From positions 2,418,001-2,482,000 of the forward strand of contig NZ_CP150291.1 in NCBI RefSeq assembly GCF_038051985.1: 64,000 nt of DNA, written 5' to 3'. The DNA is from Solibacillus sp. FSL H8-0523. GTDB lineage: Bacteria; Bacillota; Bacilli; Bacillales_A; Planococcaceae. Each line of letters starts with the position of its first letter. Positions within the stretch are counted from its first letter, which is position 1. The notes below the pieces were generated by a model. It had not been told where the DNA came from. It searched no databases and saw only the letters and a list, made by a program, of their open reading frames with translations. The translations under genes were made by a program, and so were the position numbers. Below are positions 47,037 through 55,863 of this stretch, piece by piece.

Positions 47037-48317
47037 CTAAAACTTAAATTCCATCTCGTCCACACAACCACTTTCCATGTCTTTAATGGCAATTTTATTG
47101 GCGTTGATTTCATTTTCCCCTAAGACAATTACTTTCCCGACATTTTCGCGATTCGCTTTGTCCATTGCCTTACGAACCTTTTTCCCGGAAAGTTCCACTT
47201 CCACACGCTTACCGGTTTTTCGGAAGAAGCTCGCTAGTTGCAAGGCTTGTTTTTCCGTGTTCATCGGGATAATATAAATGTCGATTTCACGTGGATTTTG
47301 TTCAACTTTCCCAGCGAGGTCAAGCGCGGTATAAATCACATCTAATCCAAATGAGATGCCGACTGTAGCGAATGATTCGTCGGTGCCAATCAGTCCCCCA
47401 ATCGCATTATCATAACGCCCGCCACTCCCAATGCTTGATTTAATCTTGCCATCTGCTAAGAAAATTTCGTAAATCGTACCGGTGTAAATTTCTAAGCCTC
47501 GCGCTAAAAATGGATTGAAGATGCATAGTTGATCAATTTGCAGCGCTTGTAAATAATCCATTAATTCACGAACTTCCGTCACACCCTCAGCGATAAAACG
47601 ATTTTGCTCCTGATAATTTTCAAAATACGCAAGGCTAGGTACGGCATCTAAAAAGTGTTCGATTTGGGCTAGTGATTTCTCTGTGAGTGAAAGTTCCTTT
47701 AATTCTTTCACTAATGTCGTGCGATTGATTTTCTCCATTTTATCTAAAATTAAAATGACACGATTCATGACATTTTCAGGCACCTCAAACATCTGTAGTA
47801 AGCCGTATAATAATTTGCGGTTATTGTATTGAATCGTAATTGGGACCGCTAACTCTTCAAACGCATCCATGGCCATCATCATCAGTTCGGCTTCTGCTGC
47901 TTGTGATTCGACACCCACGATATCGACATCGCATTGCGTGAATTCTCGGAATCGCCCTGCTTTTATTGGGCCATCACGGAATACCTTTCCGATTTCATAG
48001 CGTTTAAAAGGCATGGCAAGCTGTGGATTCATCGCAACGACCTTTGCGAACGGAATGGTTAAATCATAACGTAGAGCTAAATCACGTTCACCACGATCCG
48101 TTAATGTATACATTTCTTGCAGAATTTCCGCACCACCTGCATATTTCGACGCCATCAGCTCTGTGTAATTGATAATTGGTGTTTCAATCGGTTTACAGCC
48201 ATATCGTATAAATGTGTCTTCTAATATGCGGCGAATTTTACGACGTACACTCTCTTGTTCTGGTAAAAAATCCTGTGTTCCACGTACATTTTGATAATCC
48301 ATTTTCTTCATTTTCAT
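47037..48317 (-). CDS. hisS: Histidyl-tRNA synthetase
   Basis: 426 aa, the usual HisRS length; an internal start at 48308 is also possible. Motifs include RGTQDFLP, YEIGKVFRDG with RFREFTQCDVDIVG (motif 2), LARGLEIYTGTIYEIF and GSGGRYDNAIGGLIG. The anticodon-binding C-terminal domain is complete (VEVELSGKKVRKAM region). It charges tRNA-His. It is not followed by aspS, unlike the standard Bacillus hisS-aspS pair, so it may be a second hisS copy. A His-rich leader peptide and an intrinsic terminator precede it. Confidence 0.93.
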   Translation of the reverse strand: MKMKKMDYQNVRGTQDFLPEQESVRRKIRRILEDTFIRYGCKPIETPIINYTELMASKYAGGAEILQEMYTLTDRGERDLALRYDLTIPFAKVVAMNPQLAMPFKRYEIGKVFRDGPIKAGRFREFTQCDVDIVGVESQAAEAELMMMAMDAFEELAVPITIQYNNRKLLYGLLQMFEVPENVMNRVILILDKMEKINRTTLVKELKELSLTEKSLAQIEHFLDAVPSLAYFENYQEQNRFIAEGVTEVRELMDYLQALQIDQLCIFNPFLARGLEIYTGTIYEIFLADGKIKSSIGSGGRYDNAIGGLIGTDESFATVGISFGLDVIYTALDLAGKVEQNPREIDIYIIPMNTEKQALQLASFFRKTGKRVEVELSGKKVRKAMDKANRENVGKVIVLGENEINANKIAIKDMESGCVDEMEFKF

Positions 48318-48342: not shown

Positions 48343-48450
48343 AAAAAAATCGTATAAGTATAAAGCTCCAAAACGGCTTTATTATACGATTTCACGACGA
48401 AAAGTCTTCCTATTCGATATTAAAAAATTAATAAAGATAGCAAGACTTTT
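48343..48450 (-). promoter_or_regulatory. hisS leader attenuator (alternative hairpins and terminator)
   Basis: On the minus strand, a hairpin of AAATCGTATAA...and TTATACGATTT (48348-48392) followed by T7 forms an intrinsic terminator about 26 bases before hisS. Upstream, AAAAGTCTT directly after the leader stop pairs with AAGACTTTT. CTTTATTA (complement of 48429-48436), which lies in the loop of that hairpin, is complementary to TAATAAAG (complement of 48377-48384) in the 5' arm of the terminator. These give mutually exclusive structures as in ribosome-controlled attenuation. Confidence 0.75.
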
Positions 48451-48502
48451 ATTTATGATGATGGTGTTTAGAACTAAGTGAAAGTTGCCAATTTGACTGC
48501 AT
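48449..48502 (-). CDS. His-rich leader peptide of hisS (17 aa)
   Basis: The ORF MQSNWQLSLSSKHHHHK starts at ATG 48502 behind AAAGGGGAAG and contains four consecutive His codons (CAC CAT CAT CAT) two codons before its stop. It is followed by a terminator and hisS. By analogy with the enterobacterial his operon leader, a ribosome short of His-tRNA would stall at these codons and change the fold downstream. No T-box sequence is present, although T-box control is the rule for Bacillus hisS. Confidence 0.8.
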   Translation of the reverse strand: MQSNWQLSLSSKHHHHK

Positions 48503-48531
48503 AAAATCTTCCCCTTTCGATTTAATTACAG

Positions 48532-48560
48532 ACTATACAGCAAAAATTTCCGATGCGCAA
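48532..48560 (-). promoter_or_regulatory. Promoter of the hisS leader
   Basis: -35 TTGCGC (48560-48555) and -10 TATAGT (48537-48532), 17 bases apart, about 30 bases upstream of the leader-peptide start. Confidence 0.65.
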
Positions 48561-52921: not shown

Positions 52922-55006
52922 TTATTGCTTCTGATTACATACTCTACAAGTACTTTTTTTATTTGATCTTTGATTCAAGGACTCTTCCCATTCATGGCCT
53001 TCAGCACATTGCCACCAAACTTTTTTACTCATACCTTTAGTAACATCCCACGGTGTTAGATTATCATTTTTACTAGGATGCCATTCTTTTGCAAGTTGAG
53101 GATAGGTAACAGCTAAATTATTTGTAATGCTAACACGCCTACCTTGACAATACGGACAACTAAACGATTTCCTTGAGTAAACGGGAGTTTCCCAAATATG
53201 GTCTGGACCGTTAGGACAACGCCAAGTAACTACTTTTTTAGATCCCGCTGTAACTTCATACGGAGAGATGATATTACTACTATCCCATTGGTTCACCAAC
53301 TCTGGATAAATAGCCGCAAAAGAGTTACTTTCATTTACTCGTTTTCCAGTACAGAATGGGCAGCCTCTACCTCGCATACGGGATTTAACATTCATTGAAT
53401 ACTCATGCCCCTTTTCACATTCCCAAATTATCTCTACATTCGATCCTGTTGATATGAAATTCGGATTTAATCCAGTATTTTTTGTTGAATGCCATTGTTG
53501 TAGTAGTTTAGGTTCAATAGTTGCAATTGAATTTGCCCTTTTTACATGATAAAAATTCGTTCGAATATCTATTAAATCATTATTTGTAAAAATATCCTTA
53601 AAATTAATTGGTATTTTTAAATGGTTAAAAATATCAAAAATCATACTAGCATAGCTTTCAAGATTGGATGGCTCAAAAAGATAATTCCAAGATTCATCTA
53701 TTTGTGTCAGTGGTGCCTCTCTAACTCTAACAGTCGAATAGCCATTTTTTTTAAAGAAAAGATTTTTTTCTCTATCTTTATCTTCTTTACCTAAATGCCA
53801 CTTCTTACCGTCATATTCTATAATTGTTTGAATCGAAGGTAATAATATATCTGCTTCGAATGATACATCATCAACCCTAATGATTTCTCTATGTGATACA
53901 GTCAGTCCACTCTTTTTCAAATAATAATACAATGAAAATTCAGGAAAAGAACTTCCTGATAGTTTATAGCATAGAGGGCAACCAGAGCCTTTTAAAGATC
54001 TATCTGCTACAACTTTTTCATAGCTATGTCCTTCTGGGCATATCCACCAATACCGTTTATTAGAGAAAGGTAATACATCCTTGGCTGTAATTCCATTATT
54101 TTTTTCATTATCCCAATCAAGTGCTAAATCCGGACGAATATTGGCCAAACAAGTTTCATCTGAAGCAAATAAATTTTTACAATATGGACAGCCAGAATTT
54201 TTCCCGTTTCTATTAGAAATATATGCTTCCCATTCATGTTTTTTCGCACAAATCCACCATACTTTTTTATTAGCATTTGGTGATACATTATCTGGTAATA
54301 ATTGATTATTTTTCGTTGGGTGCCATTCTTTTGCTAATGATGGATTAGTCACATTTAAGTTATAGTCTTTGTGCACAATTTTATTTGAGCATTTAGGACA
54401 ACCCTGAGCTTTCACACGATTATATACAGTCATTTGATAAGAGTGATTATTTGCACATTTCCACCAAATTTTTTTCGATGTACCTGGGGGGATTTGAGTA
54501 GGTAAAAGTTTATTATTTTTATCATAATGCCATTCAGATGCTATTTCAGGGTATAACTTTGCAAATGAGTTCTGTTCATTAATTTTTAAATTAGCACAAT
54601 ACGGGCAACCTCTACCTCTTTTCCTCCCTGCTATACTAGCAAAATAACTATGTTGTTTAGGGCAAATCCACCATACTTTTTTTGAACTCCCTGGTAAAAC
54701 TTCTTTAGGTGTATTTAAGTTTTTTTCATGATCCCACTCTTTTGCAATTTCCGGATAAACGGTTAATAGGCAATTTTCTATATTAGCTTTTTTATTTGCA
54801 CAATACGGGCAACCTTTACCTTTAACTTTTTCCTTAACTACTTTTTCATAAAAATGACCTTTATTACAAATCCACCATACTTTAATATGACTACCTTTTG
54901 AAACTTCAGTGGGTAATGTAATATTTTGATTTTTTTCATAATACCATTCTGTTAACAATTCAGGATAGAGAGTAGCAATCGATTTTTCTTTAGAGACTTT
55001 CCTCAT
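52922..55006 (-). CDS. Multi zinc-ribbon (DUF4379-like) protein with an embedded nuclease domain
   Basis: 694 aa. Eight repeats of about 65 residues each carry P-x-L/I-x-x-E/Q-W, a K-K-V-W-W-x-C block, G-H-x-W/Y and G-C-P-x-C, so each can hold one zinc through four Cys/His. Five repeats occupy about 1-345 and three about 485-694. Between them lies a domain with VSFEADILLPSIQTIIEYDG and KWHLGKEDKDREKN, then GYSTVRVRE. This matches Vsr/DUF559-type PD-(D/E)XK nucleases with D, E and K at the expected spacing. The protein probably binds nucleic acid through the ribbons and cuts it. It is a lone gene with its own terminator. A role in defence or as a selfish nuclease is inference. Confidence 0.8.
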   Translation of the reverse strand: MRKVSKEKSIATLYPELLTEWYYEKNQNITLPTEVSKGSHIKVWWICNKGHFYEKVVKEKVKGKGCPYCANKKANIENCLLTVYPEIAKEWDHEKNLNTPKEVLPGSSKKVWWICPKQHSYFASIAGRKRGRGCPYCANLKINEQNSFAKLYPEIASEWHYDKNNKLLPTQIPPGTSKKIWWKCANNHSYQMTVYNRVKAQGCPKCSNKIVHKDYNLNVTNPSLAKEWHPTKNNQLLPDNVSPNANKKVWWICAKKHEWEAYISNRNGKNSGCPYCKNLFASDETCLANIRPDLALDWDNEKNNGITAKDVLPFSNKRYWWICPEGHSYEKVVADRSLKGSGCPLCYKLSGSSFPEFSLYYYLKKSGLTVSHREIIRVDDVSFEADILLPSIQTIIEYDGKKWHLGKEDKDREKNLFFKKNGYSTVRVREAPLTQIDESWNYLFEPSNLESYASMIFDIFNHLKIPINFKDIFTNNDLIDIRTNFYHVKRANSIATIEPKLLQQWHSTKNTGLNPNFISTGSNVEIIWECEKGHEYSMNVKSRMRGRGCPFCTGKRVNESNSFAAIYPELVNQWDSSNIISPYEVTAGSKKVVTWRCPNGPDHIWETPVYSRKSFSCPYCQGRRVSITNNLAVTYPQLAKEWHPSKNDNLTPWDVTKGMSKKVWWQCAEGHEWEESLNQRSNKKSTCRVCNQKQ

Positions 55007-55689
55007 TTTTTCTCTCCTCTACTATAAACTTCTAATGTTATCTATATTATACTCGTGTTAATTTTTAAAGTCTGACAATTAATTAATGAATTTTATATTT
55101 TTATCGCATCATCAGATCATTTCCAAATCTAACATTAAATTAATTTAATTCAACAATACAGTATCCCAGATTAAACGTACTCAAATTCAAAATCCCACTA
55201 GAAAACTGACTTGTCGGCTTTACTGTCGGGTTCTCTTTTTCACTTAAAGATCGAAAATTATACCAAAGTGGCGCATGATGATAACCTTATAATTTCACGA
55301 ATTACGATTCGCAGATTAATCAAAGTCGTTATTAAACTCGTAAAATCTGGTCATTACTTACACTTTAAATTATTATCAAGTTTCGGGTACAACAGCTTTC
55401 CTTCAACTAAAGTCCTTTTAAAATTTGAACCCGTACGTCTGCCTAAAAATCGAAGACATTGATAAAAACTTATGAAAATGTTTGTTAGCTCTGAATAAAT
55501 CAGGATCCTATAACCTTTTGCGTTTATTTTTGTACATTCAAGACCACTTTTATAAACATAAATCACTACAATTGCCCACATGTCAAACCACTTTAATTAT
55601 CCGACTTTAAAATCTCCCTTTACTTTTCATATACGAACACGTATACTCATACCTATAACTATATATTGTGTTGATTTAACGCGGTACTA
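55007..55689. other. Long intergenic region with possible gene remnants
   Basis: About 680 bases without a supported gene. A minus-strand frame near 55100-55250 reads SEKENPTVKPTSQFSSG and another at 55354-55581 is open, but neither has a ribosome site and they are in different frames. They may be decayed coding DNA. The 3' part should contain the promoter for the nrd operon. Confidence 0.4.
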
Positions 55690-55845
55690 CTAAATGTAGT
55701 TTAAAAGGGAAGTTTGGTGCAAAACCAACGCTGTCCCCGCAACTGTAAATGCTGACTGAAAAGACAATAACCACTGTGCGTATGCATGGGAAGGTGTCTT
55801 AAAGGATGACGCAAAGCCAGGAGACCTGCCACGCTAAATTTACGT
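55690..55845 (+). ncRNA. Cobalamin riboswitch
   Basis: The conserved parts occur in order: AGTTTGGTGCAAAACCAACGC, split here as GGTGCAAAACC, then GCTGTCCCCGCAACTGTAA (55730-55748) and GCCAGGAGACCTGCC (55816-55830, B12 box). An intrinsic terminator follows at 55901 and then nrdH. By the known logic, bound adenosylcobalamin favours termination. It would switch off the B12-independent class Ib reductase when B12 is present. Confidence 0.95.
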
Positions 55846-55863
55846 ACATTTCTTCGGGGAACA

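Follow-up and report, generated by a model that had tools for sequence, protein, structure and literature searches.

The leader upstream of hisS2, a second histidyl-tRNA synthetase (HisRS) gene in Solibacillus sp. FSL H8-0523, is very likely a histidine-sensing attenuator. Taken as a whole, our proposal that transcription of this second HisRS gene is attenuated through a leader peptide that senses histidine is a prediction that we consider probable. A histidine leader before a hisS paralogue belongs to a known kind of element; what is new is the split between leader types with and without a detectable antiterminator.

Organization of the leader upstream of hisS2

The window, that is, the whole analysed stretch of 64,000 nucleotides, carries all leader elements and the gene on its minus strand, in the order promoter-like pair, Shine-Dalgarno sequence, short open reading frame (ORF), hairpin, linker, terminator and hisS-type gene:

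48532-48560, minus strand: putative sigma-A promoter TTGCGC-17-TATAGT, identified by eye (TTGCGC 48560-48555, TATAGT 48537-48532, spacer 17 nt)
48511-48517, minus strand: Shine-Dalgarno sequence AAAGGGG of the leader ORF; a similar sequence also precedes the leaders of relatives
48449-48502, minus strand: leader ORF MQSNWQLSLSSKHHHHK, 17 codons followed by TAA; a His-codon leader is found in 14/14 genus and 22/22 further family loci
48455-48466, minus strand: four His codons, CAC CAT CAT CAT, within the leader ORF
48400-48450, minus strand: hairpin A:B, beginning at the leader stop codon; its outer stem holds a conserved G-G mismatch
48394-48403, minus strand: linker between hairpin and terminator, 10 nt, consensus TATTTNTCAT; its first bases overlap the extended stem of the window
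48346-48393, minus strand: terminator hairpin D:E, local fold -16.9 kcal/mol, stem ends approximate
48343-48349, minus strand: terminator U-tract, T7
47037-48317, minus strand: hisS2, second histidyl-tRNA synthetase; the start conserved in relatives is the ATG at 48311

The arms of hairpin A:B are AAAAGTCTT (48450-48442) and AAGACTTTT (48408-48400). A previous sequence-only reading of this DNA had described a promoter, a ribosome site, a 17-codon ORF, a hairpin at the stop codon and a terminator before a hisS-type gene, and each of these is present where it was placed. Folding of the transcript, which the same reading had proposed as a check, gives for 48525-48318 a free energy of -46.8 kcal/mol, more stable than shuffled sequences (-34.0 +/- 3.9 kcal/mol, z -3.3).

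The first promoter hexamer matches the consensus at only three of six positions by eye, and a consensus pattern scan of the window reported neither the leader promoter nor the leader terminator. By eye, the -10 hexamer TATAGT is present in 13 of the 14 genus loci, and five of the 14 show TTGACA-18-TATAGT. An MKKMDYQN-type start of HisS2 is seen in relatives.

Elsewhere in the window, a cobalamin riboswitch (Rfam RF00174, 120.8 bits) occupies 55665-55847 on the plus strand, and 52922-55006 on the minus strand encodes a 694-aa protein with repeated W-x-C-x-x-G-H units, presumably zinc ribbons.

The gene behind the leader is a second, distant HisRS

The hisS2 product scores 602.8 bits against NF009085 (histidine--tRNA ligase; cut-off 540), and by its sequence the gene is a second, distant HisRS of the NF009085 type and not the usual hisS. 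Another HisRS place in the same genome is 35% and 33% identical to the hisS2 product over two pieces, and a third place is hisZ-like to judge from its sequence match. Among solved HisRS chains, HisS2 matches 6nhi at 217 bits, 3net at 162, 4phc (cytoplasmic HisRS) at 159 and 1qe0 at 121, the last being the chain that this genome's canonical HisS matches at 583 bits; we take 4phc to be human, 3net to be from Nostoc and 1qe0 from Staphylococcus. Since HisS2 fits cytoplasmic-type chains better than the bacterial chain favoured by canonical HisS, hisS2 does not look, at the level of protein similarity, like a recent copy of hisS.

Canonical hisS is present in 10/10 hisS2 genomes checked and in both genus members that lack hisS2. 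An Rfam T-box match (RF00230) precedes canonical hisS in this genome, whereas none is found upstream of hisS2 in the window. The same match precedes canonical hisS at 9/9 same-genus loci in one set and 2/2 in another, these sets covering part of the canonical hisS loci of the genus, and at only 2/10 loci of other genera; the contrast between a T-box and a leader peptide at the two HisRS genes is thus shown for this genus and not for the class. None of 10 sister-type hisS2 loci scanned (see below) has a T-box match upstream. The sequence-only reading had presented hisS as controlled by attenuation instead of a T-box. There is indeed no T-box here, but the gene is the second HisRS and the canonical hisS keeps its own, so that the contrast set two different genes against each other; the leader at hisS2 therefore replaces no T-box of canonical hisS.

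Conservation of the leader peptide

In the genus search, hisS2 was found in 14 of 16 genomes, all 14 with the leader; the family search found it in 36 of 250 genomes, the 14 genus ones included, and the leader in all 22 further loci. Read singly, all 36 loci have a His-codon leader ORF next to the same hairpin, which bears out the expectation that the His codons are conserved in relatives. In a named collection (112 relatives found, 80 kept, some genomes repeating the genus and family sets), an ATG leader with a Shine-Dalgarno sequence lies within 350 nt in 75/80. A hairpin model matches the coding strand in 79/80 of these relatives, partly by construction, since 46 leaders drawn from the two sets served to train it; the exception is L102.

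The model was also run against the order and the class, with Infernal's stricter filters. Among 261 genomes of the order, all 36 with hisS2 have a match, and seven have a match at the cut-off without hisS2, three of them strong and four weak; in each of the strong cases, a leader lies next to a hisS2 that is broken or gone. All matches below E 1e-10 examined in the two scans are likewise hisS2 leaders or leaders beside a broken or missing hisS2, and the weaker matches examined lie near unrelated genes and are chance-like. To judge from these sequence searches, the presence of the leader at hisS2 is not a chance occurrence.

Two observations concern the fate of the gene. In four genomes (L150, L173, L176 and L141) the leader outlives hisS2, which is truncated, broken or missing. 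In Oceanobacillus sp. J11TS1, two hisS2 copies (L091 and L102) lie about 12 kb apart on one contig; the leader hairpin is kept at one copy and there is no model match at the other.

Across the 116 loci of the three sets (14 + 22 + 80), a script found the leader in 111, which gave 86 leaders that are distinct after the stop codon; four of the five remaining loci have a model match further upstream. The window has four His codons. The 86 distinct leaders have three His codons in 65 cases, four in 11, two in eight and five in two. Among 92 distinct ORFs, His is nearly always written CAT, and in all 59 that have a Gln two codons before the His run, this Gln is written CAA. The leader thus contains a short ORF in which codons for the regulated amino acid stand in tandem, and translation of this ORF is predicted.

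The distance from the first His codon to the outer stem of the hairpin is 15 nt in 75/86 distinct leaders. In the window it is 18 nt, and the second of the four His codons lies at 15 nt. The spacing of 15 nt recurs in 18 leaders of genus g40, where hisS2 has an identity of only 49-54%. The stretch 5' of the hairpin is poor in G in hisS2 leaders (consensus UCACAAYUACAUCAUCAUAUC), which might help this stretch to stay unpaired.

A covarying hairpin and a near-fixed linker

The outer stem of hairpin A:B has the consensus UAGYCUUgCUAU / AUAGgAAGRCUA. In 46 sequences, 98% of the cells of the outer helix are paired, with double changes at 6 of 11 pairs, and the inner helix is 70% paired. Taken over the entire structure, with 15 pairs in 46 sequences, the covariation score is 0.233, compared with 0.112 for shuffled alignments, none of 500 reaching it, and a slid structure scores at most 0.091. 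By this measure hairpin A:B covaries, and one part of the expectation that the stems covary is upheld. The other part, concerning the pairing CTTTATTA/TAATAAAG, is not: that pairing is not conserved and does not exceed chance.

The G-G mismatch is retained in 83/86 leaders. The linker between hairpin and terminator measures 10-11 nt in 79/86, and its positions 1, 3, 4 and 10 are conserved at 98% or more. Conserved letters in a stem, a mismatch that is kept and an unpaired, conserved linker of near-fixed length together suggest, at the level of sequence, that hairpin and linker are recognised by RNA polymerase or a factor.

In this regard, hairpin A:B might do no more than cause a pause in which the ribosome can catch up, with the rest of the switch invisible in the sequence. 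The conserved T-rich linker directly after the hairpin agrees with this explanation, as does the vmlR leader of B. subtilis, for which the accessible text of PMC9226507 reports a motif for NusG pausing next to a probable pause hairpin. In the linker, however, the NusG motif TTNTTT is not enriched (11/86 leaders, 9.8 expected), and pausing alone would leave readthrough unexplained; we regard this explanation as rather unlikely.

The terminator and the search for an antiterminator

The computed folds predict an intrinsic terminator between leader and hisS2. Ribosome states were modelled by barring the covered nucleotides from pairing, with the ribosome placed on the first His codon, two codons downstream of it or on the stop codon. 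Over the 86 leaders, the mean probability of the terminator is 0.92 for the free RNA and 0.94 in each of the three states. The sequence-only reading had proposed a switch through exclusive pairings including CTTTATTA/TAATAAAG. That pairing exists as letters, linking the interior of the first hairpin with the 5' arm of the terminator, and in many relatives CTTTATTA is replaced by other sequence; the switch itself finds no support, the terminator being alike in every modelled state. In the window architecture, no RNA-only switch is visible in the computed folds.

It could be argued that the leader is nonetheless a normal attenuator of the trp/his type, in which A:B excludes an antiterminator CTTTATTA/TAATAAAG that is too weak or divergent for energy tests. 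The pairing is present in the window, and there the terminator 5' arm pairs upstream, before its 3' arm appears, with a probability of 0.65 when the ribosome is at the stop codon and 0.28 when it is at His (0.40 and 0.26 over the leaders). The sign of such a switch would however be reversed, and this weak trend to more upstream pairing at the stop counts against the direction of response that we favour. The duplex of the terminator 5' arm with the ORF, the hairpin 5' arm and the hairpin 3' arm has a mean z of +0.13, +0.17 and +0.13, respectively, with +0.1 to +0.4 as the span over the upstream segments tested; with the 5'UTR it is +0.05, while the control duplex of A with B reaches -3.1. For hairpin and terminator, native partners have no advantage, 45-54% of the swapped pairs being better, whereas for the two terminator arms they clearly do, with 10% of swaps better than the native combination. 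As a plain list of column pairs is confounded by relatedness, helices were searched separately in the full alignment; those of at least 5 pairs are A:B, D:E and matches of the purine-rich strand B to the terminator end and U-tract only. Moreover, the same kind of test does detect an additional segment in the sister types described below. Taken together, no mutually exclusive antiterminator was found in window-type leaders, and we hold a normal attenuator here to be unlikely.

The matches of strand B raise the opposite logic, in which a ribosome at the stop codon would free strand B, which would disturb the terminator, so that hisS2 would be made when His-tRNA is plentiful. Strand B with the terminator 3' arm has a mean z of -0.6, and of -1.1 with the U-tract added (26% below -2), in excess of shuffles; the longest match, 8 pairs and mostly G-U, occurs in 97% of weighted cells. 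Against this, native pairs of strand B and terminator are no better than swapped ones, the U-tract match is of low complexity, and the terminator is still dominant with the ribosome at the stop (0.94). We did not retain strand B as an antiterminator, the excess over shuffles not being specific to native pairs. The physiology would also be odd for a synthetase and contrary to the sister types, and we consider this logic quite improbable.

Three further possibilities were looked at. Hairpin arm A with the stretch beyond the terminator gives a mean z of -0.5. Strand B, being rich in purines, might serve a second start codon located on the terminator; by eye this codon is ATG in about half of the leaders and ATT in many, and the idea was dropped. 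Finally, a ribosome might shift frame at hungry His codons and translate through the terminator, holding it open. The His codons do directly precede the hairpin, but the frame past the U-tract is open in only 8% (+1), 3% (-1) and 5% (same frame beyond the stop) of the 86 leaders, and on the rarity of such open frames we reject frameshifting as extremely improbable.

Sister-type leaders with an additional pairing segment

A class sample of 398 genomes held hisS2 in 33 (E 1e-80), of which four have matches to the window-type model. For the other 29, leaders were examined in 26 and then in the last three, which end HHIKQR, YHFHRR and HHHKQR. In 25 of the 26, a Gln stands one or two residues before at least two His codons, mostly HHH and in three cases HYYH. 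The latter three (L198, L199 and L203) have their middle His codons turned to Tyr (QLHYYHKQR), and L202 has by eye one His left (QFYYHKQR); L202 was left out because the script's criteria gave no leader, and 25 leaders were analysed. The recurrence of Gln ahead of the His run across lineages may mean that the nascent peptide itself plays a part. From the first His codon to the stem there are 15 nt in 18/25, and 10-16 nt in the other seven, the two groups being by sequence families f22 and f3.

In these leaders a segment C follows hairpin A:B. Its mean z with strand B is -4.3 in f22 (18/18 below -2) and -5.6 in f3 (7/7); with the terminator 5' arm, it is -2.6 in f22 (16/18 below -2) and -1.4 in f3 (0/7). 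The computed pairings indicate that two sister families, whose hisS2 is more distant, retain the leader and its hairpin and add the exclusively pairing segment C, clearly in f22 and less so in f3. The modelled terminator has a mean probability of 0.67 with the ribosome at the first His codon and 0.89 with it at the stop (25 leaders). A clear computed switch (terminator at most 0.22 at His and at least 0.74 at the stop) is seen in only 7/25; of the remainder, one switches partially and the others little or not at all. Given that so few sister leaders switch in equilibrium folding, the unchanged terminator of the window type is by itself weak evidence. In the modelled folds, the sister type has the textbook arrangement in which shortage switches the gene on; f22 shows it clearly, f3 less completely.

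Relation to known systems

The mechanism of the enterobacterial his and trp attenuators is well-established background. They share with the present leader tandem cognate codons, a hairpin by the stop codon and a terminator, in the part of PMC9413887 that describes them; the window-type leader differs in that no antiterminator was detected. The Rfam His leader (RF00514) has no match at the hisS2 leader at gathering score.

The closest precedent shows that the sequence-only reading was incomplete. In 2010, according to the accessible text of their paper, Naville and Gautheret (PMC2965389) predicted a His leader peptide before hisS*, a Bacillus hisS paralogue, and before hisZ in bacilli. As there, a short ORF with His codons and a premature terminator precede a hisS paralogue of bacilli, and canonical hisS has a T-box; the hisS2 leader is of this kind, as far as that text describes it. 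The same text describes no stop-codon hairpin, missing antiterminator or second architecture, and it speaks of a recent duplication specific to bacilli, whereas HisS2 scores higher with HisRS chains of the cytoplasmic type than with the bacterial chain that canonical HisS fits. The accessible part of PMC4833913 also mentions that regulation dependent on histidyl-tRNA has been predicted ahead of hisZ in some species; no His leader was seen before the hisZ-like gene of this genome.

Ashniev et al. (2022) describe attenuators before his biosynthesis operons in the Bacillus cereus group and other Firmicutes (PMC9413887). As in the hisS2 leader, leader peptides with 3-5 consecutive His codons stand directly before attenuator hairpins; in contrast, they concern biosynthesis operons and have described antiterminators, and the word hisS is absent from the accessible text. 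In the vmlR and bmrCD attenuators of B. subtilis, ribosome stalling in a short ORF likewise controls a terminator, but the response is to antibiotics and antiterminators are described (PMC9226507 and PMC4191407, from their accessible portions). Within the literature searched, which included few subscription papers and was in part available as partial text, we found neither the hairpin nor the two architectures described, and no experimental work on a leader of hisS2.

Proposed mechanism

RNA polymerase would transcribe the leader, and the short ORF would be translated by a ribosome. As long as His-tRNA is sufficient, this ribosome would reach the stop codon and cover the 5' arm of A:B, opening the hairpin, and transcription would stop at the terminator. 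With scarce His-tRNA, the ribosome would stall at a His codon and A:B, just outside the ribosome, would stay folded, in which case polymerase would read on into hisS2. We infer both the stalling at His codons and the manner in which the folded hairpin permits readthrough. The supports at hand are the parts themselves, their conservation, the near-fixed distance from His codons to hairpin, the covarying hairpin, the terminator and the link to hisS2; against the proposal, the number of His codons is small, only three in most leaders, and in some sister leaders the run is HYYH or down to one His.

By analogy, we think it likely that a shortage of His-tRNA switches hisS2 on, since sensor and geometry are common to both leader types and the same direction of response would then apply to the window. 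Whether hairpin A:B is read out without an antiterminator is, in our estimate, an even question. For the last step we favour, tentatively, that the ribosome gates a sequence-specific hairpin (UUGCUA/UAGGAA, with its G-G mismatch and near-fixed linker) that would act together with the linker directly on polymerase, by pausing or antitermination, to allow readthrough; as a specific claim this is possible but doubtful.

Implications

If the proposal is true, two HisRS genes in one genome would sense uncharged histidine tRNA by different devices, a T-box and a leader peptide. If the direct action of the hairpin is also true, the two leader types would differ in their output stages and share the sensor, and segment C of the sister type could serve as a normal antiterminator. 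RNA polymerase is reported to outrun ribosomes in B. subtilis (runaway transcription; PMC9226507, as far as its accessible text goes), so that, with such a leader-peptide attenuator widespread in Bacillales, one may ask what keeps ribosome and polymerase in step. In this regard, the type without a detected antiterminator and the sister type with the extra segment would offer a natural comparison of how the position of a ribosome is converted into readthrough.
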